Below are positions 13,693-62,825 of a stretch of 64,000 bases of DNA, in pieces. Under the pieces are notes generated by a model. It did not search any database, was not told where the DNA came from, and saw nothing but the letters and a program-made list of their open reading frames with translations. Each line of letters begins with the position of its first letter. The first letter of the stretch is position 1. A program made the position numbers and the translations under genes. The DNA comes from Acidobacteriota bacterium (GTDB lineage: Bacteria > Acidobacteriota > Vicinamibacteria > Vicinamibacterales > UBA2999), in the NCBI GenBank assembly GCA_020851325.1, contig JADZCY010000279.1:1-64000 (forward strand), in the 5' to 3' direction.

Positions 13693-13724
13693 GGCCACGG
13701 ATGGCGCAGAGCAGGAAAACGCCC

Positions 13725-13830
13725 CGTGGCGCACCCCCGTGCAGCACCCCCGTGCCGCACCCCCGTGCAGCACCTCCGTGCCGCACCCCCGTGCCGCCAC
13801 CTTCGTGGCGCACTTTCGTGCCGCACCCGC
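13725..13830 (+). repeat. 13-bp array (GTGCNGCACCYCC), CAGCACC orientation, upstream of the M14 peptidase gene
   Basis: CGTGCAGCACCCCCGTGCCGCACCCCCGTGCAGCACCTCC read directly. Confidence 0.9.
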
Positions 13831-13860
13831 GTTAAACTGGCCGCTTCAAGGAAGGCTTCC

Positions 13861-18685: not shown

Positions 18686-18692
18686 CGACGAT

Positions 18693-18841
18693 GGTGCGGC
18701 ACGATCGTGCTGCACGAGGGTGCTACACGGGGGTGCTCCACGGAGGTGCTGCACGGAGGTGCTGCACGGAGGTGCTCCACGGAGGTGCTGCACGAGGGTG
18801 CTCCACGGAGGTGCTGCACGGCGGTGCGGCACGGACCTGCG
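18693..18841 (+). repeat. 13-bp array GGTGCTGCACGGA (post-stop orientation)
   Basis: GGTGCTCCACGGAGGTGCTGCACGGAGGTGCTGCACGGA read directly after the kinase stop. Confidence 0.92.
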
Positions 18842-21442: not shown

Positions 21443-21606
21443 CGCCGCACCTCCGTGAAGCACCTCCGTGAAGCACCTCCGTGAAGCACCATCGTGCCGC
21501 ACCTCCGTGTAGCACCCCCGTGTAGCACCTCCGTGTAGCACCTCCGTGTAGCACCTCCGTGCAGCACCTCCGTGCAGCACCCCCGTGTAGCACCCCCGTG
21601 TAGCAC
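21443..21606 (+). repeat. 13-bp array CACCTCCGTGTAG, CAGCACC-like orientation
   Basis: CACCTCCGTGAAGCACCTCCGTGTAGCACCCCCGTGTAGCACC, about 12 units. Confidence 0.93.
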
Positions 21607-29114: not shown

Positions 29115-29292
29115 TCAAAGATATGGATTGTGTCGCCGCGATAGGCCCAGCCTTTCGATTCGACGGGAATCCGACAGGACGACGCCTCGATCGATGACAT
29201 CGGATGACAGCGCGAGCGAATCGAACGCGATCGCCAGAATCCCGTCGCGCCACTGCCGACGATCCGCCCGCCTTCGCGCTTCGCGCACTCCT

Positions 29293-29402
29293 CAGCACCA
29301 TTCAGCACCGGTCAGCACCGGTCAGCACCGGTCAGCACCTTTCAGCACCTTTCAGCACCTGTCAGCACCCGTCAGCACCCCTCAGCACCTTTCAGCACCC
29401 TT
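29293..29402 (+). repeat. 10-bp CAGCACCNNT array, pre-start orientation
   Basis: CAGCACCATTCAGCACCGGTCAGCACCGGTCAGCACCTTT, about 11 units. Confidence 0.93.
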
Positions 29403-29418
29403 CGATCTAGACTTCCCC

Positions 29419-30765
29419 ATGCCGCGTCCTGCCTTGCGCTTCCTGTCATTGGCGTTTGTCCTCTTCACCAGCGTTGCGTCCGCGTCGGCGCAACCGCCAG
29501 TCGCCTATCCCGATCCCACCGTGCGCGTGCTGACGCATCGCGAGCAGAACGATCTCGTCACGCCGTGGATCAAGAAGCGCTTCGACACCGTGCTGCCCGG
29601 CCTGATGACGCGCGAGGGGATCGACATGTGGATCATCCCGTCGCGCGAATACAACGAAGACCCGGTGTTCGCCTCGATGTCGCCGATGACCTACTTCGCG
29701 TCGCGGCGCCGCACCATCCTCGTCTTCTACAACCCCGGCGGCGGCCAGCCCGTCGAGCGCTACTCGATTGGCCGCTTCGACTACGACCGGCTCTACACGA
29801 TGGTGCCGACACCGAACGACGGCCAGCACGAGGGGCTGCGCAAGCTCGTCGAAGAGAAGCAGCCGAAGGTAATCGGCATCAACGAATCCGACGCGTGGAA
29901 TCACGCCGACGGCATCACCGCCAACGAGAAGCGTCGTCTGATGGAAGCGCTCGGGCCGACTTACGCGTCGCGCGTGAAGTCCGCCGAGATGCTCGCGGTC
30001 GGCTGGCTCGAAGTGAAGCTGCCCGAGGAACTCGAGGCCTACCGGCACGTGATGAAGGCGGCGCACATGATCATCCGCGAAGCCTTCTCCAACAAGGTGA
30101 TCACGCCCGGCAAGACCACTTCGCAGGATGTGGTGTGGTGGATGCGGCAGCGCGTCGCCGAACTCGGACTCGGCTCGTGGTTCCAGCCGTCGATCACCAT
30201 CTGGCGCAAGGGCGGCAACCTCACCACCATGCAGGGTGTCATTCAACCCGGCGACATGCTCCACACCGACTTCGGCATCGTCTACCTGGGATTCTCGACG
30301 GACACGCAGCACAACGCGTATGTGCTGCGGCCGGGAGAAACCGACGCGCCGCAGGGCTTGAAGGACGGACTGAAGAAAGCCAACCGCCTCCAGGATCTGA
30401 CGATGCAGTTCGCGAGGTTGGAGCGGACGGGGAATCAGGCGCTGGCGGATGCGCTGGGACAGGCGAAGAAGGAAGAGATCATCCCGTCGATCTATTGCCA
30501 CCCGATCGGTTACCACGGCCACGCCGCCGGTCCACCGATTGGCATGACGGATTATCAGGACGGCGTGCCCGTGCGCGGCGACTACGTGTTCCGTCCCAAC
30601 ACCTGGCACTCGATTGAACTGAACGGCACGCACAGCGTCCCCGAGTGGGACAACCTCGCCGTCCGCTTCGCGCTCGAGGAAGACGCGGCAATCATGCCCG
30701 GCGGCAAGTGGGACTGGATCGACGGGAGGCAGACGGAGTTCTATCTCATAGGTCCTAAGTCCTAG
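29419..30765 (+). CDS. M24 family metallopeptidase (Xaa-Pro aminopeptidase-like), secreted
   Basis: HTDFGIVYLGFSTDTQHNAYVLRPGE, PIGYHGHAAGPPIG; ATG at 29419. Confidence 0.85.
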   Translation: MPRPALRFLSLAFVLFTSVASASAQPPVAYPDPTVRVLTHREQNDLVTPWIKKRFDTVLPGLMTREGIDMWIIPSREYNEDPVFASMSPMTYFASRRRTILVFYNPGGGQPVERYSIGRFDYDRLYTMVPTPNDGQHEGLRKLVEEKQPKVIGINESDAWNHADGITANEKRRLMEALGPTYASRVKSAEMLAVGWLEVKLPEELEAYRHVMKAAHMIIREAFSNKVITPGKTTSQDVVWWMRQRVAELGLGSWFQPSITIWRKGGNLTTMQGVIQPGDMLHTDFGIVYLGFSTDTQHNAYVLRPGETDAPQGLKDGLKKANRLQDLTMQFARLERTGNQALADALGQAKKEEIIPSIYCHPIGYHGHAAGPPIGMTDYQDGVPVRGDYVFRPNTWHSIELNGTHSVPEWDNLAVRFALEEDAAIMPGGKWDWIDGRQTEFYLIGPKS

Positions 30766-30927
30766 GTCCTAGGTCCTAGGTCCTAGGTCCTAGGTCCTAG
30801 GTCCTAGGTCCTAAGGAAGAGCTCTTGTTCACGAAAACAACGAGGGCTTTGGCTCGAGGGCTTGCCGGCTCGAGTCGTGGGCAAGAGTTTTTCCTAGGAC
30901 CTAAGACCCAGGACCTAGGACCTTCCT
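30747..30927 (+). repeat. CCTAGGT heptamer element: nine tandem heptamers (30751-30813), core hairpin, inverted heptamers
   Basis: (GGTCCTA)9, CTCTTGTTCACGA...TCGTGGGCAAGAG, then CCTAGGACCTAAGACCCAGGACCTAGGACC. Confidence 0.92.
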
Positions 30928-38212: not shown

Positions 38213-38310
38213 AAAGGTGCGGAAGGGTGCTGACAGGTGCTGAAGGGTGCTGAGGGGTGCTGACAGGTGCTGACGGGTGCTGACGGGTGCTGACGGGTGC
38301 TGATAGGTGC
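38213..38310 (-). repeat. 10-bp CAGCACC array (minus strand), pre-start orientation for the DUF3299 gene
   Basis: Plus strand GGTGCTGACAGGTGCTGAAGGGTGCTGAGGGGTGCTGACAGG. Confidence 0.93.
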
Positions 38311-38311
38311 T

Positions 38312-38420
38312 TACGTGGGAGGCGGGAGGCCGAGAGAGGGCGAAGCCTCGCCGTAGCGCGAAGCGCGAAGGCGGGAGGCGGGAGGGCGAGACAGGGCGAA
38401 GCCTCGCCGTCGCGCCGAGC
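38312..38420 (+). repeat. GGGAGGC heptamers with duplicated GGGCGAAGCCTCGCCGTMGCG hairpin segment
   Basis: GAGGCGGGAGGC plus two copies of AGGGCGAAGCCTCGCCGT. Confidence 0.75.
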
Positions 38421-43580: not shown

Positions 43581-46133
43581 ATGAGATGGCTTCGTAGCCT
43601 CGCGGTGGCCGTAGTTCTGGCGGCGGCGTTCTCCACGATCCCGTCGAGCGCGGTGACGCGGCTGGCGTCGGCCGACGGACAGTTCTGGGACATCCAGGAC
43701 ACGTCGCCGTGGGCGACCGACAGCGGCGGCATCGCCACCGGCGGCGGCGCCAATCCGTTCAACGGGTTCGGATACCTGAAGCTCTCGCTCTCGCCCGGAG
43801 CGCAGCGTGCGGACGGACCCGCACCGCGCCAAGTCGATGGGTCGGGTCCCGCCACCCGTCTCACGCTTCCCGACGCCATCTACCTGCGCGGCTTTGGTCT
43901 CGCGCACGACGGCAGCGAACGCTTCGACAGCCTCACGCCCGTGCTGCACGACGGCATCGTCGTGGCGCGGGCGATCTACGCGCCGCGCGACACCAACTAC
44001 CTGCGTTATTACGACAGCTTCACCAACGCGACGACGACGCCGCGCGAGATCGAGGTCGCGTGGGGCGGCGCCGCCGGTGTGTACGAGGACGGCGGTCGCG
44101 TCGCCGTGGCCGTCACGTCGAGCGGCGATCGCACGATCGATCGCGGGGACACGTTCGTCACCGTGATGCAGAACGCGAGCGCCGTGGCGGATCTCCAGCA
44201 GGGCCCGTCCGGCCACGGGCCGTCGGCGCATGTGCTCGGTGATGCAAACGCCACCGTGTTCGCGCGCGCCGGCGACATGTATGCGAATCCCTTCACCGAC
44301 GCGTATCCCGGCTTTGATCCGGCGCACATCGGCTACGTCTATCGCCTGTCGCTCGCGCCGGGCCAAACAGCGGCGCTGGTCACCTTCGTCGTCAAGGGCC
44401 TGAGTGAGGTGTACGACCCGCGCGGCGGTTATCCGATTGCGGCGCGCGACGCGCTGCTGTCCAACTGGTCGGCGCCGGTTTATGCGGGCGCGGATCGCAA
44501 GGTTCCGGCCGCCGGCACCGAGATCGCACGCGTCACCGAGCAGGCTCGGCGTCTCGTCGCCGAACCGGATCTGCGCGGTCTCACCACCCGCCAGCGCGCG
44601 GCAATCGTCAACTGGTCGTCGGCGCGCGTCTTCGGCGCCAGTGGAGCGCCGACGATCGCCGAGTTCTCGGTGGTCGAGAAGACCGTGAACGAACTCGCCG
44701 AGGCGATGCGCACCGGCGCGACGACGAGCGAGGACATCGTTCGCGAGTATCTCGTGCGGCAGACGCTGCACGATCGCCACGGTTCGACGCTGCGCGCCGT
44801 GTTATCGCTGAACCCACGCGCCATCGCCGATGCTCGCGCCCGCGATGCCGAACGCGCGGCCGGACGCGTGCGCGGTCCATTTCACGGCGTGCCGATTCTG
44901 CTGAAGGACAACATCGACGCGACGGAACTGCCGACGACGGGTGGGGCGCGTGCGTTGATCGATCATCGACCGCGGGTGGATTCGCGCGTCGCCGCCGGGA
45001 TGAAGGCGGGCGGCGCCATCATCCTCGGCAAGGCGAACCTCGACGAGTTCCCCTTCGGCGACTTCGGCGTCAGCACCCTCGGCGGCATCGTCGGCAACGC
45101 CTATGACCCGACGCTCAGCACCGCGGGATCGAGCGGCGGCAGCGCGACGAGTGTCGCCGCCAGTCTCGTTACGCTGGCCTTTGGCACCGACACGTGCAAT
45201 TCGCTGTCGAACCCGGCCGCGTTCGCGTCGCTGGCGACGATGAGGGTGACGCGCGGGCTGGTGAGCCGGGCGGGCGTGATGCCGCTCAATCCCTACAACG
45301 ACGCCGTTGGTCCGATGGCGAAGTCGGTGCGCGAAGTGGCGCAGGCACTCGACCTCGTCGCCGGCACCGACGCCGACGATCCCGCGACCGCCGAGGCCAA
45401 CGCGCACATCCGTGGCTCGCTCGCTGCCGATCTCGACACCGCGACGCTGAAGGGCAGGCGCATCGGCATCTTTCGTCAGCGCTTTGTCGGCATCACCGGC
45501 GAACGCGAAGTGGCCGACGCGATGGCGCGTGTCGTGAAGGAACTGCAGGCCGCGGGCGCCATCACGGTGGATGTCGCCATTCCCGACTACGACGCGAAAT
45601 ACGCGGCCGCACGCGGCGCCGCACCGGGCTCTCTGCGCGACGCGTGGACGGCCTATCTCTCACGCGGCGCCAAGCCTGGCGAACGGGTGTTGACGATTCA
45701 GGATCTGATCGACTCCGGCAAGATGGCGCCGGCCGGTCAGCGCCGGCTGGAGGGCATGCTCGCGCCAACGCCGGCAGGCGCCGAACTCGCCGCGGCCGTG
45801 CAGCGCTTCGAAGACGCGCGCGCGACCTTCCGCCAGCACTTCGTCGATCTGATGGACCGCGAACGCCTCGACGCGTTGATGTATCCGGCCAATCACGCGC
45901 GCCCGGCAACGCATGAAGGCGGCGCGGAGCGGTATGGTTCGGAGCCCGGCACGTGCCAGGAAAGCGCGGCCACAGGGTTGCCGCAGATCACCGTCCCGGC
46001 CGGCTTTCTCGCCGGGCGTTATCCGGTGGGCGTGTCGTTCCTGGGCCGCCGATGGGCCGACCGTGAACTGCTTGGCATCGGTTACGCGTACGAGCAGGCC
46101 ACGGGCCACAGGCCACAGATGGGGCACAGATAG
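43581..46133 (+). CDS. amidase (amidase-signature family) with about 340-aa N-terminal extension
   Basis: GPFHGVPILLKDNI, TAGSSGGSATSVAASL; C-terminal ATGHRPQMGHR encoded by the repeat array. Confidence 0.85.
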   Translation: MRWLRSLAVAVVLAAAFSTIPSSAVTRLASADGQFWDIQDTSPWATDSGGIATGGGANPFNGFGYLKLSLSPGAQRADGPAPRQVDGSGPATRLTLPDAIYLRGFGLAHDGSERFDSLTPVLHDGIVVARAIYAPRDTNYLRYYDSFTNATTTPREIEVAWGGAAGVYEDGGRVAVAVTSSGDRTIDRGDTFVTVMQNASAVADLQQGPSGHGPSAHVLGDANATVFARAGDMYANPFTDAYPGFDPAHIGYVYRLSLAPGQTAALVTFVVKGLSEVYDPRGGYPIAARDALLSNWSAPVYAGADRKVPAAGTEIARVTEQARRLVAEPDLRGLTTRQRAAIVNWSSARVFGASGAPTIAEFSVVEKTVNELAEAMRTGATTSEDIVREYLVRQTLHDRHGSTLRAVLSLNPRAIADARARDAERAAGRVRGPFHGVPILLKDNIDATELPTTGGARALIDHRPRVDSRVAAGMKAGGAIILGKANLDEFPFGDFGVSTLGGIVGNAYDPTLSTAGSSGGSATSVAASLVTLAFGTDTCNSLSNPAAFASLATMRVTRGLVSRAGVMPLNPYNDAVGPMAKSVREVAQALDLVAGTDADDPATAEANAHIRGSLAADLDTATLKGRRIGIFRQRFVGITGEREVADAMARVVKELQAAGAITVDVAIPDYDAKYAAARGAAPGSLRDAWTAYLSRGAKPGERVLTIQDLIDSGKMAPAGQRRLEGMLAPTPAGAELAAAVQRFEDARATFRQHFVDLMDRERLDALMYPANHARPATHEGGAERYGSEPGTCQESAATGLPQITVPAGFLAGRYPVGVSFLGRRWADRELLGIGYAYEQATGHRPQMGHR

Positions 46134-46240
46134 CACAGGCCACAGATTGCACAGATGACACAGATGGCACAGGCCGCAGATTGCACAGATGACACAGGCC
46201 ACAGATGGCACAGATGACACAGATAAGGGGTAGGCGGCAG
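46097..46240 (+). repeat. CACAGATGGC array (reverse complement of CATCTGTGGC family) overlapping the amidase 3' end
   Basis: CACGGGCCACAGGCCACAGATGGGGCACAGATAGCACAGGCCACAGATTGCACAGATGACACAG. Confidence 0.92.
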
Positions 46241-46344
46241 ATGCGCAGATAACCGACGGGAAGAACGGCCGCAGACGTCACAGGGCGAAGAACAGCCGCA
46301 GATGCGCAGATATGCATACAAGGCTTTCAGTTTGAAGCCGGGCA

Positions 46345-46462
46345 AGCCCTCCAAGCCCACCAAGCCCTCAGCCCGCGAGCCCCCAGTCCTCCAGCCCTCC
46401 AGCCCTCCGGCCCTCCAGTCCTCCAGCCCTCCAGCCCTCCAGTCCCCCAGACGGCCAGACCG
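46345..46462 (+). repeat. AAGCCCTCC/CAGCCCTCC 9-bp array
   Basis: CAAGCCCTCCAAGCCCACCAAGCCCTC...CCAGTCCTCCAGCCCTCCAGCCCTCC. Confidence 0.92.
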
Positions 46463-46494
46463 CCAGACGTGACGAGCGGCACAGCGACAGGTGA

Positions 46495-46562
46495 ATCGGC
46501 GATCCGCCAATCATCAATCGTCAACAATCGCCCACTCCCCCGATCGTCCAATTGCCGATGTA
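46495..46562 (+). repeat. Reverse-complement GATTG-family repeat ending AATTGCCGATGT
   Basis: CCGCCAATCATCAATCGTCAACAATCGCCCACTCCCCCGATCGTCCAATTGCCGATGT. Confidence 0.8.
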
Positions 46563-46627
46563 TTGGCCTCTACGGCCCCCTGCGCCGGCGACCGATACGA
46601 AGAGCGCCACTGCCGACGGGACGAACC

Positions 46628-47722
46628 ATGAACTTGCGCGCTCTTGCACTGATCTTCACACTCGCGTTCGCTGCTCCTGCCTTTGCCGCGCAAAGCGATC
46701 AGGGCCGCTTCACCGGTCGCGTCACCGACGGCTCGGGCGGCGCGCTGCCGGGTGTCACCGTGACGATCACCGGCGCGCGCGGGTCGAAGCCCGTCGTCGT
46801 GACCACCGACAGCGTCGGCCAATACCAGTCGCCGCCACTTCCCGACGGCAGCTACGCGGTCAGCTTCGAACTCACCGGCTTCGAGACGCGTGCCAACCCG
46901 ACGGTGCTGCTGCGAGGCGGCGAGGTGTTCGTGCTCGACCGGCAGTTGGCCATTGCCGCACTGAGTGAGACCGTCGAAGTGACCGGCGCCGCGCCACCGC
47001 CGCCCGTCATTGCGCCGCCGCCCCCGCCGCTGCGCGTGCAGCCGAAGACGATTCCCATTCCGAAGGTCGTGCTCGCCTCGGTGTGCGCACCGACCCGGCC
47101 TGGCGACGTGGACCAGACGGTGGCGCACATCCTCGGCCACCGCTACGACACACGACGCGAACTGTTCAGCCAGGGCGATGTGCTGCGCATCGACGTCGGC
47201 GCCGACATGGGCATCGGCGTCGGCCAGAACTACGTCGTTCGGCGTCGCGTGCAGATTGGCGAGCGGCGCGCCCAGGCGAAGGACGCCACGTTCGGCGAAC
47301 AGACGGCGGGACTGGTGCAGGTGGTCGAGACCACGCCCGACGCGGCGGTCGTCGTCGCCGTCTACGCCTGCGGCGAGTTCATGCCCGGCGACAGCCTCGA
47401 GCCCTTCGACGCGCTGCCGGTGGTGCAGGCGCAGGCGCCCGGCACGCCGCAGTTCGACGAACCGGCGCGCGTCGTCTTCGGCGAACAGGGCCGCATGCTC
47501 GGCGCCGGTGGACAGATGGTGGTGATCGATCACGGCTCGGCGCACGGCGTCACGCGCGGCCAGCGCGTCACGATCTTCAAGCGCGCCCAGGGCAGCGACG
47601 GCCCCGTCATCGCCCTCGGCGATGGCATCGTCTCGGTGGTGCGCCCGCAGTCGTCCACCATCCAGATCACGCGCACGACCGAGGCCGTCGAAATCGGCAC
47701 GCTGATGGCGCTGCACAAGTAA
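46628..47722 (+). CDS. carboxypeptidase-regulatory-like (beta-sandwich) domain protein
   Basis: Signal peptide; GRVTDGSGGALPGVTVTITGARG...GQYQSPPLPDGSYAVSFELTGFET. Confidence 0.82.
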   Translation: MNLRALALIFTLAFAAPAFAAQSDQGRFTGRVTDGSGGALPGVTVTITGARGSKPVVVTTDSVGQYQSPPLPDGSYAVSFELTGFETRANPTVLLRGGEVFVLDRQLAIAALSETVEVTGAAPPPPVIAPPPPPLRVQPKTIPIPKVVLASVCAPTRPGDVDQTVAHILGHRYDTRRELFSQGDVLRIDVGADMGIGVGQNYVVRRRVQIGERRAQAKDATFGEQTAGLVQVVETTPDAAVVVAVYACGEFMPGDSLEPFDALPVVQAQAPGTPQFDEPARVVFGEQGRMLGAGGQMVVIDHGSAHGVTRGQRVTIFKRAQGSDGPVIALGDGIVSVVRPQSSTIQITRTTEAVEIGTLMALHK

Positions 47723-47726
47723 AAGT

Positions 47727-47766
47727 CTGGAGGGCAGGAGGGCTGGCGGACTGGAGGGCTGGAGGG
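47727..47766 (+). repeat. CTGGAGGGC 9-bp array, post-stop orientation
   Basis: TCTGGAGGGCAGGAGGGCTGGCGGACTGGAGGGCTGGAGGG. Confidence 0.88.
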
Positions 47767-47767
47767 C

Positions 47768-47969
47768 CGGGCGCGAAGGCGGTGCCGGCTGCTGGTGGCC
47801 CTTCGAGGTCGGCCGACGCACGCTGCCGACAAACGGCCCGCTGGTCGGCACTCGGCCGTGTTTGAGCTCGAAAAGGCAGGCGAGTTGGCCCAAGCGCTTG
47901 TTTGCCACAGCGGGGCGTTTGACCGGCCGACCGAGGGGCCACCGGCAGCCGGCACCGCCTTCGCGCCCG
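47768..47969. repeat. ~200-bp imperfect palindrome with ~48-bp near-perfect terminal inverted repeats
   Basis: CGGGCGCGAAGGCGGTGCCGGCTGCTGGTGGCCC... versus ...GGGGCCACCGGCAGCCGGCACCGCCTTCGCGCCCG; both strands encode GAKAVPAAGGPS. Confidence 0.9.
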
Positions 47970-48026
47970 TAATCACGCATCTTGTGCGCCCGGAACTTCC
48001 GCTGTGCGTTGACCGTCCTCCGATTC

Positions 48027-50558
48027 GTGAATGATCTGAAAGTTTCCTTCCGGCTCCTCGTCAAATCCCCCGGCTTCACCCTCGCCGCCATCGTCGTGCT
48101 GGCCCTCGGCATCGGGCTGAACGCGGCGATGTTCAGCGTGTTGCACGCGACGGTGTTCGCCGGCCGCGCCTTCCCCGACGCGGACCGCGTGGTGCAGATC
48201 TTCAGCCACGACACGCGCACGCAGGCCTATCGCGCGTTTGCGTATCCCGTCTATGCGGAGCTGTCTGGGCGCACGGATGTGTTCAGCGGCGTCCTCGCGC
48301 ACCGGCCCGTGATCGTCGGCGTCGGCGCGGACGCGGAATCGCGGCGATCGATGTCGGCCGTCGTCAGCCAGAACTACTTCGACGTGCTCGGCGTCGCGCC
48401 CGTGCGCGGGCGCGTCTTCACCGCGGAGGAATCGACGCCGGGCCGCGCCGCCATGGTGGCCATCGCGAGTCATGCGTATTGGAAGCGCACCGGCTTTGCG
48501 CCCGATATCATCGGCCGCACCGTTCGCATCAACGAACATCCCACCACGATCATCGGCGTGATGCCCGAGGGATTCACGGGGACGATGATGGTGTTCGGGC
48601 CGGAGTTGTATTTCCCGCTCGGCGCGTATGACGTGTTGTCGAACGATGTCGGCAGCGACGGCGCGCTTGGCATGCGGGCGCGTTCGTTGAGCGACCCACA
48701 CAGCGAAGCGCTGTTCGTCGTCGGGCGACTGCGCGACGGCGTCGCCTTTGCGGCGGCGTCACAAGCAGTGGCCCTGTACGGGCAGAGCATGGCGCGGGCG
48801 CTGCCAGCAGAGTACGAACATCAGATGCTCTCCATCGGTGCCCTGCCTCGCCTGTCCACCAGCACCGACCCTTCTGATGAATCCGTGCTGGGACCGCTGG
48901 CCGCTGTGTTCCTGGGCATGACGGGCGCCGTGCTGCTGACGGTGTGCCTGAACCTGGCGTCGATGCTGCTGGCGCGCGGGCGGGCACGCCGGAAGGAGTT
49001 TGCGGTACGCCTCGCGCTCGGCGGCGGTCGCGGCCGCCTCGTCCGGCAGTTGCTGATCGAAGGCTTCGTGCTCGCACTCGCCGGCGGTGCGCTCGGCCTG
49101 GCGCTCGGCAGTTGGGGCCTGCAACAGTTGGTCGCGGCGTTCTCGTCCCGCATCCCCATCACCATTGGCATCAGCGACAGCGTGTCGCCGGCACTGGCGG
49201 TGGCGACGATCTTCTTTTCGCTGGCGGCCACGCTCGGCTTCGCGCTCGGGCCCGCCCTCCGCAACACGCGGCTCGACCTGCTGACCGATCTCAAGGCGCA
49301 GCCGGGCGACGATGCGGCGCCGCGGCGATGGCGATTCGTGCCGAGGAACCCGCTGGTCGCGACGCAGGTGGCGCTGTCGCTGTGTCTGTTGATTGCCGCC
49401 GGCTTGTTCCTGCGCATGGCGCTTACCGGTGCATCCACCGACCTCGGCTACCGCGCCGACGACACCGTCCTCGCGGAAGTGGACAGCCAGCTTGGCGGCT
49501 TCACGAAAGCGCACAGCCTCGACCTGTATGCACGCATCGAGCATCGGCTGTCGGCGCTGCCGGGCGCGCCCGTCGTCAGCATCGGCGCGGTGGTGCCGAT
49601 GGGCATGGTCAACTACTTCAAGAACGTGCGCCGCGCCGGCATTGCGCCGCCGCCGGGCAGCAAGCCGACGACGCCGGAAGCCGGGCAGTCGTTCGGCGTG
49701 CCGCTCAACGCCGTGGGCACGAGCTACTTCGACGCCATGGGCGTGCGGTTGCTGCGCGGACGGACGTTCACGCCCGCCGAGACGTTCAGCGAGGGCGCGC
49801 CGGCCGTGTCGATCATCGACGAGGCGCTGGCGCTCGAGCTGTGGCCGGACGGCTCGGCGCTCGGCCAGCGGATCCAGTGGGCCAGCGACTCAGAGTCCGG
49901 CACCCCCGCCACGCCGATGGAAGTCGTCGGCATCGTCGCGTCGACGCGCGCGGGATTGTTCGAGAAGGAACCGCGCGGCGCCGTGTACGTGCCGTTTGCG
50001 CAGGGCTTCACCGGCAACGCGTTCTTCCATGTGCGGCCGTCACGGCCGGACGCGGATCTGCCGACCGCCGTGCGCCGCGAGATCCGTGATGCCGCCGCCG
50101 GTCTGCCGTTGTTCAACGTGCGCACGTTCAGCACGCACATGGCCGTGGCGCCGGAATACTGGGCGCTCAGCATGGCCTCCGCCGGGTTCGCCTTCTTCGC
50201 CGGCATGGCGATGGTGGTGGCGCTCGTCGGCCTCTACGGCGTCACCGCCTACACGGTGGAACGCCGCACGCGTGAAATCGGCGTCCGCGTCGCCGTCGGC
50301 GCCCGGCCGGTGGAAGTGATCCGCTTGATCCTCGGCGAGGGCATGGTGACGACGATGGCGGGCATTGGTGCGGGATGGGTGCTGGGCCTCGGCGTCGGCC
50401 GCGCGATGTCGAGCATCTTCGTCGACGTCGCCGCCTTCGACGGCTGGACGTTCGCTCTCGTCCCCGTTGCGTTCGTGGTGTCGTCAGCGATCGCGACGTT
50501 CGTCCCCGCCCGCCGCGCCGCACGCATCAACCCGGTCACCGCGTTACGTGCGGAGTGA
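48027..50558 (+). CDS. ADOP-type FtsX/MacB-like permease (second in window)
   Basis: FRLLVKSPGFTLAAIVVLALGIGLNAAMFSVLHATVF; GLYGVTAYTVERRTREIGVRVAVGA; GTG 48027 tentative start. Confidence 0.9.
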   Translation: MNDLKVSFRLLVKSPGFTLAAIVVLALGIGLNAAMFSVLHATVFAGRAFPDADRVVQIFSHDTRTQAYRAFAYPVYAELSGRTDVFSGVLAHRPVIVGVGADAESRRSMSAVVSQNYFDVLGVAPVRGRVFTAEESTPGRAAMVAIASHAYWKRTGFAPDIIGRTVRINEHPTTIIGVMPEGFTGTMMVFGPELYFPLGAYDVLSNDVGSDGALGMRARSLSDPHSEALFVVGRLRDGVAFAAASQAVALYGQSMARALPAEYEHQMLSIGALPRLSTSTDPSDESVLGPLAAVFLGMTGAVLLTVCLNLASMLLARGRARRKEFAVRLALGGGRGRLVRQLLIEGFVLALAGGALGLALGSWGLQQLVAAFSSRIPITIGISDSVSPALAVATIFFSLAATLGFALGPALRNTRLDLLTDLKAQPGDDAAPRRWRFVPRNPLVATQVALSLCLLIAAGLFLRMALTGASTDLGYRADDTVLAEVDSQLGGFTKAHSLDLYARIEHRLSALPGAPVVSIGAVVPMGMVNYFKNVRRAGIAPPPGSKPTTPEAGQSFGVPLNAVGTSYFDAMGVRLLRGRTFTPAETFSEGAPAVSIIDEALALELWPDGSALGQRIQWASDSESGTPATPMEVVGIVASTRAGLFEKEPRGAVYVPFAQGFTGNAFFHVRPSRPDADLPTAVRREIRDAAAGLPLFNVRTFSTHMAVAPEYWALSMASAGFAFFAGMAMVVALVGLYGVTAYTVERRTREIGVRVAVGARPVEVIRLILGEGMVTTMAGIGAGWVLGLGVGRAMSSIFVDVAAFDGWTFALVPVAFVVSSAIATFVPARRAARINPVTALRAE

Positions 50559-50559
50559 C

Positions 50560-50605
50560 TCGGAGGGCTGGAGGACTGGAGGGCTGGAGGACTGGAGGGC
50601 TTGAA
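50560..50605 (+). repeat. CTGGAGGAC/GGC 9-bp array, post-stop orientation
   Basis: GGAGGGCTGGAGGACTGGAGGGCTGGAGGACTGGAGGG. Confidence 0.92.
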
Positions 50606-50609
50606 GGGA

Positions 50610-50665
50610 CCGCCCGCTTCGCGGTCGGTAGGGCAAATCCAGGACCGCGCTGCGCGCGGTAGGGC
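50610..50665 (+). repeat. Two small REP-like hairpins (GACCGCCCGCTTCGCGGTC; GACCGCGCTGCGCGCGGT)
   Basis: Inverted repeats read directly, each followed by AGGGC. Confidence 0.7.
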
Positions 50666-50689
50666 GCGGGCCCGCGCTTCAGCCTTTCA

Positions 50690-50785
50690 GCCCCTCCAGC
50701 CCCCCAAGCCCTCCAGGCCCCCAGCCCTTCAAGCCCTCCAAGCCCTCCGAGCCCTGCCAAGCCCCAAGCCCCAAGCCCTTCAAGC
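50690..50785 (+). repeat. AAGCCCTCC 9-bp array (reverse complement of 50560 array)
   Basis: CCCCTCCAGCCCCCCAAGCCCTCCAGGCCCCCAGCCCTTCAAGCCCTCCAAGCCCTCC. Confidence 0.9.
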
Positions 50786-50804
50786 CGTCCTTTCAGCTTT
50801 CCGT

Positions 50805-50985
50805 GAGCCGTGCGCCGTAGGCCGTGGCCGTGGGCCGAGAGCCGTGAGTCGTGCGCCGTGAGCCGTGGCCGTGGGCCGAGAGCCGTGAGCCGTGAGCCGT
50901 GAGCCGTGGCCGTGGGCCGAGAGCCGTGGGCCGCGAGCCGTGAGCCGTGGCCGTGGGCCGAGAGCCGTGAGCCGTGAGCCGTGGA
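50805..50985 (+). repeat. GCCGTGA/GCCGTGG heptamer array, higher-order unit GCCGTGAGCCGTGGCCGTGGGCCGAGA
   Basis: GAGCCGTGGCCGTGGGCCGAGAGCCGTGAGCCGTGAGCCGTGAGCCGTGG read directly. Confidence 0.92.
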
Positions 50986-55469: not shown

Positions 55470-55524
55470 GACTCGTACCGCTCTGAATCGGCAGGCCCGG
55501 CCGGGTCTTGAGGCGGCACCCCTC

Positions 55525-55618
55525 CAGCACCTTTCAGCACCTGTCAGCACCCCTCAGCACCTGTCAGCACCTGTCAGCACCTGTCAGCACCCTTCAGCAC
55601 CTGTCAGCCCAGCACCTT
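55525..55618 (+). repeat. 10-bp CAGCACCTGT array, pre-start orientation
   Basis: CAGCACCTTTCAGCACCTGTCAGCACCCCTCAGCACCTGT, about 9 units. Confidence 0.93.
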
Positions 55619-55647: not shown

Positions 55648-56685
55648 ATGGCGCAGACACTGGAACTTGGTCTCGATACCTTTGGCGACATCACGCACGA
55701 CGCCTCCGAACAACCCCTCTCCCACGCCCAGGTCCTTCGCAACATCGTCGACGAGGCCGTCCTTGCGGATGAGCTTGGGCTGGCGTTCATCGGCGTCGGC
55801 GAGCACCACCGGCCGGATTTCGCGGTGTCGGCGCCGGAGGTGCTGCTGGCGGCCATCGCCAGCCGGACGAAGCAGATTCACCTCGGCTCGGCGGTCACCG
55901 TGCTCAGTTCGGACGACCCGATCCGCGTCTATGAACGCTTCTCCACCATCGACGCCGTGTCGAACGGCCGGGCGGAAGTGATCGTCGGCCGCGGCTCGTT
56001 CACCGAGTCGTTCCCCCTGTTCGGCTTCGACATGTCGCAGTACGAACTGCTCTTCGAAGAGAAGCTGGAGATCTTCGCGGCGCTGGCCTCGGGCGAACCG
56101 GTGTCGTGGTCCGGCAAGACGCGGCCGCCGCTGACGGATCAATCGGTGTATCCGCCGCTCGAAGGCAAGCGGCTGAAGACGTGGGTGGGCGTGGGCGGCA
56201 GTCCCGAGTCGGTCATCCGCGCCGCGCGGCACGGCCTGCCGCTGATGCTCGCCATCATCGGCGGCGCCGCGTCCCGCTTCGCGCCGTACGTGGACCTGTA
56301 TCACCGCGCGTTGAAGCAGTTCGACCGCGAGCCGCTGCCGATCGGCGCGCACTCCCCGGGGCACGTCGCTGCCACCGACGAACAGGCGCGCGAGGAACTG
56401 TGGCCGGCCTACCGGGCGGTGATGTCGCGCATCGGCCGCGAACGCGGCTGGCCGCCGGTGACACGGGCGCACTTCGAACAGGAAGCCGGCCCCTTCGGCG
56501 CGCTCTATGTCGGGTCGCCGGCGACGGTCGCGGCGAAGATCGTCACGACGGCAAAGACGCTGGGCCTCAGCCGCTTCGACCTGAAGTACAGCAACGGCAC
56601 CCTGTCGCACGAGAAGATGCTCGAGAGCATCCGGCTGTATGGGACGGAGGTCGCCGAGGCGGTGAAGGAAGGACTTAGGACTTAG
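55648..56685 (+). CDS. LLM class flavin-dependent oxidoreductase (luciferase-like)
   Basis: LELGLDTFGDI, IGVGEHHRPDFAVSAPEVLLAAIA, VGRGSFTESFPLFGFD. Confidence 0.92.
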   Translation: MAQTLELGLDTFGDITHDASEQPLSHAQVLRNIVDEAVLADELGLAFIGVGEHHRPDFAVSAPEVLLAAIASRTKQIHLGSAVTVLSSDDPIRVYERFSTIDAVSNGRAEVIVGRGSFTESFPLFGFDMSQYELLFEEKLEIFAALASGEPVSWSGKTRPPLTDQSVYPPLEGKRLKTWVGVGGSPESVIRAARHGLPLMLAIIGGAASRFAPYVDLYHRALKQFDREPLPIGAHSPGHVAATDEQAREELWPAYRAVMSRIGRERGWPPVTRAHFEQEAGPFGALYVGSPATVAAKIVTTAKTLGLSRFDLKYSNGTLSHEKMLESIRLYGTEVAEAVKEGLRT

Positions 56686-57017
56686 GTCCTAGGTCCTAGG
56701 TCCTAGGTCTTAGGCAAGAACCTCCGCCCACGACATCCGGTCCGTTGGTTCTTCGTGGACAAGGGCCTTTGCTTAGGACTTAGGACTTAGGTCCTAGGTC
56801 TTAGGTCCTAGGCAAGAGCCTCCATCCACGAATCCCAGGACCGGCGAGTCTTTTGTGGACAAGAGTTCTCGCTTAGGACTTAGGTCCTAGGTCCTAGGTC
56901 CTAGGTCTTAGGTCCTAGGCAAGAACCTCTATCCACGAATCCAAGGACCGGCGAGTCTTTTGTGGACAAGAGTTCTCGCTTAGGACCTAGGACTTAGGAC
57001 CTAGGACCTAAGACCTA
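56673..57017 (+). repeat. CCTAGGT heptamer element with three hairpin-like core segments between convergent genes
   Basis: Alternating TAGGTCC/TAGGACC heptamers and conserved GGCAAGARCCTCYRYCCACGA...TTTGTGGACAAGAGTTCTCGC segments. Confidence 0.93.
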
Positions 57018-61248: not shown

Positions 61249-62385
61249 ATGACGTTTCCTCGCCTGCCGTTGTCGATTGCGCGTCTGCTGGCGCTGACGT
61301 TCGTGCTGGCGCTGGCCGTGCCGCTTGCCGTCACGGTGATGGGCGAACAGCCGGACAACACGATCGAAGAAAACCGCGAACCGGCGCCGTGGCCCGAGCC
61401 GCCGCACGACTTGAAGTCGCTGGCGGCATGGCCCGACGCGTTCACCAGGTACTTTGCCGATCACGTCGCGTTCCGTTCGACGCTGGTGCGCTGGCAGGCG
61501 CTGTTCCGCGTCCACGTGCTCGGCACCTCGCCCTCGCCTGACGTGATCCTCGGGCGCGACGGCTGGCTCTACTACGGCACCGACGGCGCCATTCCCGATT
61601 ACTCCGGTGCCGATCGCTACGACACGGCATCCCTCGAGGTCTGGCGGACGACGCTGCAGCATACGCAGGACTGGTTGGCGTCGCAGGGGATCGCGTACGT
61701 GTTCGTGATCGCGCCGGACAAGCACACGGTGTATCCGGAACACCTGCCGGGCGGGATCGAGCGCGTCAGCCAGACGCCGCGCGCGCAACAGGTGGCGCGC
61801 TATCTCGCCACGCACTCAACGGTGAACGTCGTCGACCTCACCGAAGCCGTCACCGCCGCGAAGTCACTCGGCCGCGTGTATCACCGCACAGACACGCACT
61901 GGAACGAACTCGGCGCGTTTGCCGGCTATCGAGAGGTGATCCGCGCGCTGCCGCCGTCACTCGGCCTGCGACCGCACGACTTGAGCGACTTCGCCATCAC
62001 GACGGTGCCGCGGCCCGGCATGGACCTCGCCGGCATGCTCGGCCTTCGCGCTGTTTACACCGAGGACGACGTGCACCTCGATCCGTTGTTCACGCGACGC
62101 ACCCGCGTGCTCGAACCGGCGAACGCCAGCCGCGGCATGATGTACGTGCGCGTCGTCACTGAAGGCGACCCCGCCGCACCGCGCGCCGTCATCTTCCGCG
62201 ATTCCTTCGGCTCGGCGCTCGTGCCGTTCCTGTCGGATCACTTCAGCCGCGCGGTGTACGTCTGGCAGAACGAGTTCGACCCGCAACTCGTCCGCCGCGA
62301 AAAGCCCGCGGTGGTCATCCAGCAATGGGTGGCGCGGCACTTCTACACCGCGTGGCCGTATGACGCGATGGCGGAGGAAAGATAG
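61249..62385 (+). CDS. AlgJ/AlgX-like SGNH O-acetyltransferase-type protein
   Basis: RTDTHWNELGAFAGYREV and FRDSFGSALVPFLSDHF; adjacent to MBOAT gene. Confidence 0.88.
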   Translation: MTFPRLPLSIARLLALTFVLALAVPLAVTVMGEQPDNTIEENREPAPWPEPPHDLKSLAAWPDAFTRYFADHVAFRSTLVRWQALFRVHVLGTSPSPDVILGRDGWLYYGTDGAIPDYSGADRYDTASLEVWRTTLQHTQDWLASQGIAYVFVIAPDKHTVYPEHLPGGIERVSQTPRAQQVARYLATHSTVNVVDLTEAVTAAKSLGRVYHRTDTHWNELGAFAGYREVIRALPPSLGLRPHDLSDFAITTVPRPGMDLAGMLGLRAVYTEDDVHLDPLFTRRTRVLEPANASRGMMYVRVVTEGDPAAPRAVIFRDSFGSALVPFLSDHFSRAVYVWQNEFDPQLVRREKPAVVIQQWVARHFYTAWPYDAMAEER

Positions 62386-62386
62386 A

Positions 62387-62825
62387 GGTCCTAGGTCCTA
62401 GGTCTTAGGTCTTAGGTCTTAGGCAACAGATCGCTTGTCACGATCTTGTGCTTCGTGGGCAGAGGTTATTGCCTAGGACTTAGGACTTAGGACTTAAGTC
62501 TTAGGCAAAAGCCCTTGTCACGATCTCGGGTTTCGTGGGCAGAGGTTTGCTTGTCACGATCTTGTGCTTCGTGGACAAGAGTTCCTGCCTAGGACCTAGG
62601 ACCTAGGACTTAGGACTTAGGACCTAGGACCTAGGACCTAGGTCTTGGGTCTTAGGCAAAAGACCGCTTGTCACGATCTTGTGCTTCGTAGACAAGAGTT
62701 CCTGCCTAGGACCTAGGACTTAGGACCTAGGACCTAGGTCTTGGGTCTTAGGCAAAAGACCGCTTGTCACGATCTTGTGATTCGTGGACAAGAGTTCTTG
62801 CCTAGGACCTAGGACTTAGGACCTA
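62387..62825 (+). repeat. Large CCTAGGT heptamer element with several conserved hairpin cores
   Basis: Repeated GGCAAAAGACCGCTTGTCACGATCTTGTGCTTCGTGGACAAGAGTTCYTGCCTAGGACC between convergent genes. Confidence 0.94.

Follow-up and report, generated by a model that had tools for sequence, protein, structure and literature searches.

The closest described counterparts of the element considered here are YPAL (RU-2, the Yersinia palindromic sequence, ~168 bp) and ERIC (RU-1, 127 bp), which resemble it as short non-coding extragenic repeats of similar length that form a long imperfect hairpin and occur in many copies per genome, and the Rickettsia palindromic elements (RPEs, 105-146 bp), which are likewise long stem-loop palindromic repeats (PMC2229807). 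Smaller in size are the REPs, 20-40 bp hairpins with a GTAG or CGTC tag at the foot, of which the CGTC type has no dedicated transposase and occurs in Bacteroidetes including G. forsetii (PMC3733652). REPs, REPINs and TIR repeats share with the present element their form as extragenic hairpins, and the CGTC REPs also the want of a dedicated transposase (PMC3733652). A precedent for a composite of a short intergenic element with a minisatellite is provided by the BrickBuilt MITE of Porphyromonas gingivalis, which is present in 19 copies (PMC4596501). Classical MITEs derived from DDE transposons are, like the present element, non-autonomous and dispersed and display inverted repeats.

We compared with these systems a locus in a 64,000-nucleotide stretch of an Acidobacteriota genome (assembly GCA_020851325.1, contig JADZCY010000279.1, positions 1 to 64,000; hereafter the window), where a first-pass annotation made from the sequence alone had described a near-palindrome with terminal inverted repeats at 47768-47969. 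The inverted repeat is real: the outer arms at 47768-47805 and 47932-47969 are complementary at 36 of 38 positions without gaps (33 of the outer 34), the best 38-nt arm pair in 40 dinucleotide shuffles reaching at most 26 matches, and the computed RNA fold of the element has an energy of -163.5 kcal/mol against -114.6 +/- 4.7 for shuffles (z = -10.5). The 48-bp arm length given by that annotation requires bridging a small asymmetric internal loop (TTCGAGG / CCGAGGG), as the ungapped match is 36 of 48; the partial inner pairing of GACAAACGGCCCGCTG with CAGCGGGGCGTTTGAC and the occurrence of GAKAVPAAGGPS on both strands are both present as claimed. The whole element (47768-47969) was delimited by the inverted repeat, the fold, the genome search and a structure model, R1, which scores the window copy at 174.7 bits (E 3e-40), this copy being among the model's own sequences. 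It is placed, with all its parts, on the plus strand, which is the strand reading TGTTTGAGC at the tip.

An alignment of the copies described below shows a layout that runs, from outside to inside, through the outer arms, inner stem 2, inner stem 3 and the tip. Inner stem 2 (GGTCGGCCG, 47807-47815; CGGCCGACC, 47924-47932) carries a conserved asymmetric loop. Inner stem 3 is conserved as GACAAAC.. / ..GTTTGAC (GTTTGACCG); its 5′ side, GACAAACGGCCCGCTG at 47828-47843, is a conserved block, and its 3′ side, CAGCGGGGCGTTTGAC at 47908-47923, ends within the conserved TTTGACCG (47918-47925), which comprises the end of this strand and the following CG. The tip, also recovered by pattern search, presents TGTTTGAGC (47859-47867), a variable stretch that can form its own small hairpin in several copies, GCGAGTT (47880-47886) and often then GCCCAAGYGCTTG.

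The element occupies most of a ~300-bp gap between a gene with a CarboxypepD_reg domain (46469-47722), just after the end of which it sits, and the ADOP gene already recognized in the first-pass annotation, which encodes an ADOP-type permease with MacB_PCD and FtsX domains (frame 47982-50558). The ADOP frame is listed from a TTG at 47982, and its start is probably further in, near 48026-48027 (VNDLKVSFRLL); with a start near 48027, the entire hairpin falls within the gene gap. In two genomes of the same genus (G003 and G004), both flanking genes are likewise present at this locus, but the element is missing. The interval in G004 instead holds reading frames that we take, from our own reading of the sequence and not from a family search, to be OsmC-, oxidoreductase- and MaoC-like, and G003 has only remnants. 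The element was, hence, either gained at the window locus or arrived with a rearrangement, as the interval in the relatives is rearranged and not a cleanly empty site; within the Acidobacteriota, we found no locus that is cleanly empty and shows exact ends.

On the first-pass annotation's own terms, a single copy without relatives and without expression would have weakened both a mobile and an RNA reading, and it proposed a search for further copies; these turned up in the same genome, in the same genus and in another genus. The window's genome (G000, a 4.46-Mb draft, 90% complete and 5% contaminated) contains about 12 further copies or fragments with 73-91% identity over most or part of the element, two of the 12 listed matches being a single copy split by a contig end (127-bp overlap). 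G003 and G004 have about 10 copies each at 70-79% identity, with other arms and the same core; the same-genus search found no copy in G001 and only a 30-bp arm match in G002. Another genus of the family (G035) has at least three copies, which were found by a pattern search and are recovered at E 1e-12, 7e-10 and 3e-6 by a covariance model from 17 copies. Among 396 sampled Acidobacteriota genomes, the tip pattern is present only in G000 and G035 and in none of the other 394, and the reversed pattern, used as a negative control, in 0 of 396. Plasmid and phage collections yielded no match to the element; one IMG/VR contig with a tip-pattern match was set aside, since the architecture is absent and the match is probably due to chance.

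The copies examined all lie between genes, and the element has no open reading frame of its own. At 29 Acidobacteriota places, where the neighboring genes were classified with a simple coding-bias caller, the context was same/same in 6, opposite/opposite in 8, convergent in 6, divergent in 3 and incomplete in the rest, with no tie to gene type, constant neighbor or gene orientation, a result that makes a terminator or a riboswitch less plausible. The dispersed intergenic copies, the absence at the orthologous locus and the lack of a reading frame support the earlier suggestion of a MITE-like, non-autonomous repeat.

Repeat analysis revealed an 8-mer minisatellite (CTGGAGGG, 5.1 units, 47727-47767) directly at the 5′ foot of the window element, where a 9-mer array had been reported before. 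Comparable arrays accompany other copies: in G000, seven copies have an array only on the 5′ side, two on both sides and none only on the 3′ side, and the corresponding counts in G003 and G004 are four, one and none, i.e., 11 to 0 for 5′-only versus 3′-only arrays over the copies examined. The units are 13-mers in nine other G000 copies, the 8-mer at the window and 7- to 11-mers in G003 and G004. Such 8-mer and 13-mer arrays would be companions outside the conserved unit, either carried along with the hairpin or grown by slippage beside it. This differs from BrickBuilt, whose 23-nt minisatellite is inside the element, whereas the array here is outside it, at the 5′ foot, with a varied unit length. 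Individual copies show further repeats: L004 (574-946) has its 3′ arm and tail in tandem with a 118-bp period (3.1 copies), and L010 and L012 contain 9-mer units (CATCTGTGC-like) within the hairpin near the tip, flanked by repeated CCGTGT. The window as a whole abounds in minisatellites whose units are 7-13 bp long (GTGCTGCACGGAG, GGTGCTGACG, CTGGAGGG, TCTGTGCCA, CCGTGAG and others), among them those at 13722-13832, 18688-18835, 21447-21606, 29292-29399, 38216-38315, 46123-46450, 50552-50983 and 55516-55608. It also contains TAGGTCC heptamer arrays in inverted pairs around short unique cores (30749-30923, 56670-57017 and 62379-62825). These arrays, in which higher-order repeats of 107 bp and 96 bp occur, give rise to large hairpins with the arrays as arms and resemble a second family of palindromic composites.

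The outer arms of the element, 30-40 nt in length, are strongly variable between copies, and their outermost sequence is the least conserved part. Copies L001, L009 and L011 have arms that are almost completely different from each other, yet paired within each copy; in most G000 copies the arms are still recognizably related, and in the orthologous copies of G003 and G004 (L029/L030 and L043/L040) they are shared. Given the related arms in G000, some copies could have spread via recombination or duplication together with the arrays. Across 17 copies, 90.6% of the cells are paired, 23 of the 49 pairs have changed on both sides, and cells with changes on both sides number 108, as against 40.8 +/- 4.6 in shuffles (0 of 500 reach the observed value) and 25-41 in slid controls. 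The arms thus diverge between copies by paired, compensatory changes. Where the outer arms depart from Watson-Crick pairing, there are 42 G.T against 11 A.C combinations, or 29:10 when each position and type is counted once per group (p = 0.003; p = 0.035 against arm composition), an excess that is modest once composition is corrected for and comes from copies that are not independent of each other. Such an asymmetry would be expected from folding of the strand reading TGTTTGAGC but not from a strand-symmetric process acting on duplex DNA, and suggests that one strand of the element is folded. The earlier proposal of a structured element thereby gains support from the strong covariation and from the strand-specific bias in tolerated mismatches.

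To look beyond the Acidobacteriota, we ran a 24-base pattern from the conserved Acidobacteriota blocks over 84,980 species genomes. It matched 15 stretches, of which 12 belong to Acidobacteriota of this family and the other three to Flavobacteriia (Flavobacterium amniphilum, F. palustre and Algibacter pacificus), against a chance expectation of about 0.6 by our simple uniform-base estimate. All three of the latter matches are at the tip of long hairpins, with a GTCAAAT / ATTTGACC stem in the corresponding place. In the two Flavobacterium species, the repeat is a ~170-bp hairpin with 12-18 copies per genome, which are intergenic, have sharp ends (..YG|TCCTTAG .. AAAAAAGAAA|A..) and bear a further small hairpin at their 3′ terminus. 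Copies that are 92-99% identical occupy other places in related genomes. The site of one copy (L149) is empty in a relative, G099, about 25 bp past a terminator-like hairpin, the junction being inexact as the sequences are 81% identical. This likely relative has been recently mobile. As for the target duplications and empty sites that the first-pass annotation proposed to look for, none of 14 F. palustre copies showed a duplication when swapped flanks served as the control for scoring, a site was empty at L149, and the window locus gave only a rearranged interval without the element. Since the link starts from a pattern taken from the Acidobacteriota copies, model R1 misses the Flavobacterium ones and the two sets are only moderately similar in pairwise comparison, we grade their kinship with the Acidobacteriota element as likely and not proven. 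Flavobacterium locus L128 was rejected as a clean empty site, since relatives carry other sequences there, some of them palindromic. The gap between genes in which the element lies in F. palustre is filled by other sequences in three relatives (L159, L160 and L161), some of them palindromic (ACCGCAGATTCGCAGATTT type). A split F. amniphilum copy was considered as an autonomous version and discarded, as it encloses a hydrolase-like gene and not a transposase.

We consider it probable that the element is a copy of a family of ~200-bp non-coding, non-autonomous extragenic mobile repeats that works through its fold. The terminator suggested earlier would fit a strong hairpin right after a gene end, but no T-run is present downstream of the window hairpin at 47970-47985, and copies are found between co-oriented, convergent and divergent genes alike and upstream of genes. 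A chance palindrome is likewise at odds with a multicopy homologous family that shows covariation and stands far outside the shuffles, and we give terminator or chance next to no weight; coding and single-copy readings were also rejected. The covariation, the tolerated G.U on one strand and the conserved unpaired tip motifs would also be accounted for if the element were a structured non-coding RNA, or a domain of one, that acts in trans or within transcripts and has several gene copies, its spread being secondary. We nevertheless hold this reading to be unlikely, because folded single-stranded DNA predicts identical covariation, there is no constant gene neighbor or orientation, the loci differ between species, and the window element has no match among the Rfam models, even at E up to 5. 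DNA-level quasi-palindrome correction, i.e., template switching between the arms that maintains the palindrome while the fold has no function, could explain why the arms are so well paired despite fast change. However, this process should erase internal asymmetries, which are conserved (TTGGAGG / ACCGA and the inner loops), and predicts equal G.T and A.C mismatches in place of the observed 29:10, leaving it very unlikely. The idea of a core inserted into pre-existing palindromes was dropped, since the arms of many paralogous copies are alignable and short arm-only genome matches show no empty palindromes.

The hairpin form, the extragenic placement and the absence of target duplication in the Flavobacterium relative would also suit a REP/REPIN or TIR repeat moved by RAYT/TIRYT (Y1 tyrosine transposases), and Y1 (RAYT-type) genes are present in the carriers G000, G003, G004 and G035 and absent from G001 and G002, which have no clear copy. 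Against this, none of the 29 Y1 genes in 11 carrier genomes has an element within about 1.5 kb: the seven in Acidobacteriota have neither an element nor a long inverted repeat within 1.5 kb, and the element adjoins none of the 22 in Flavobacterium. Further, the element (~200 bp, or ~170 bp in Flavobacterium) is much longer than the 20-40 bp REPs, and neither their GTAG/CGTC foot tag, for which the ends of the aligned copies were inspected, nor the RAYT association of GTAG REPs was seen. We therefore reject membership in the REP-RAYT system and consider mobilization of this kind quite unlikely. Two other candidate partners, the 23S-rRNA intervening-sequence protein (PF05635) and GIY-YIG genes, were excluded because no gene of either kind adjoins the element. 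In each of G000, G003, G004 and G035, matches to 23S_rRNA_IVP (four-helix bundle, PF05635) number six to fifteen, which is unusually many. A MITE in the strict sense was rejected as well: in classical MITEs the terminal inverted repeats are conserved between copies, whereas here the outer arms are the least conserved part, unlike the core, and no target duplication was seen in the Flavobacterium relative. As to a parent transposon with matching ends, none was found, the split F. amniphilum copy enclosing a hydrolase-like gene.

The mobile repeat is, therefore, best grouped descriptively with ERIC, YPAL and RPE, as a variant form in which the pairing of the arms is maintained and their sequence is not. 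It is under about 250 bp, non-coding, multicopy and intergenic, with a long stem-loop, and varies in presence at orthologous sites (the window locus in G003 and G004, with its rearranged interval, and L149, empty in G099). It departs from ERIC and YPAL, which are known in enterobacteria and listed with target-site duplications, in that none is seen in its Flavobacterium relative and in the changing sequence of its paired arms, and from RPEs, which are known for inserting inside genes, in its intergenic placement. Unusual in the present family is that the tip and the fold are conserved while the ends are free to change. We found no description of this hairpin family in the open-access papers searched, and a name in the subscription literature is possible.

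We posit that the strand reading TGTTTGAGC..GCGAGTT folds into the long hairpin, as single-stranded DNA or as RNA, and that its tip and inner stem are recognized by a protein acting in trans, probably a recombinase or transposase whose gene lies elsewhere, which disseminates the element to intergenic DNA. As the arms would need only to pair, their sequence could drift fast and the resemblance between copies be lost. More tentatively, the Acidobacteriota and Bacteroidota might have in common an undescribed dissemination system with one folded strand, a trans-acting enzyme that reads the tip and inner stem, insertion without target duplication and arms that are free to change if paired. If true, this would yield ends that are hypervariable yet self-complementary, the reverse of the way MITEs are built.

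Conserved ends or a conserved sequence define most families of small bacterial repeats, whereas what is conserved in the one described here is a fold with a conserved tip; ordinary similarity searches, consequently, reveal its copies only in close relatives. If the Flavobacterium link is true, the family joins two phyla and offers culturable hosts for finding the enzyme. The link would then also bear on what moves ERIC/YPAL-type elements, for which no transposase is known. The family further constitutes a natural data set for exploring whether selection acts on the folding of RNA or of single-stranded DNA in a mobile repeat.
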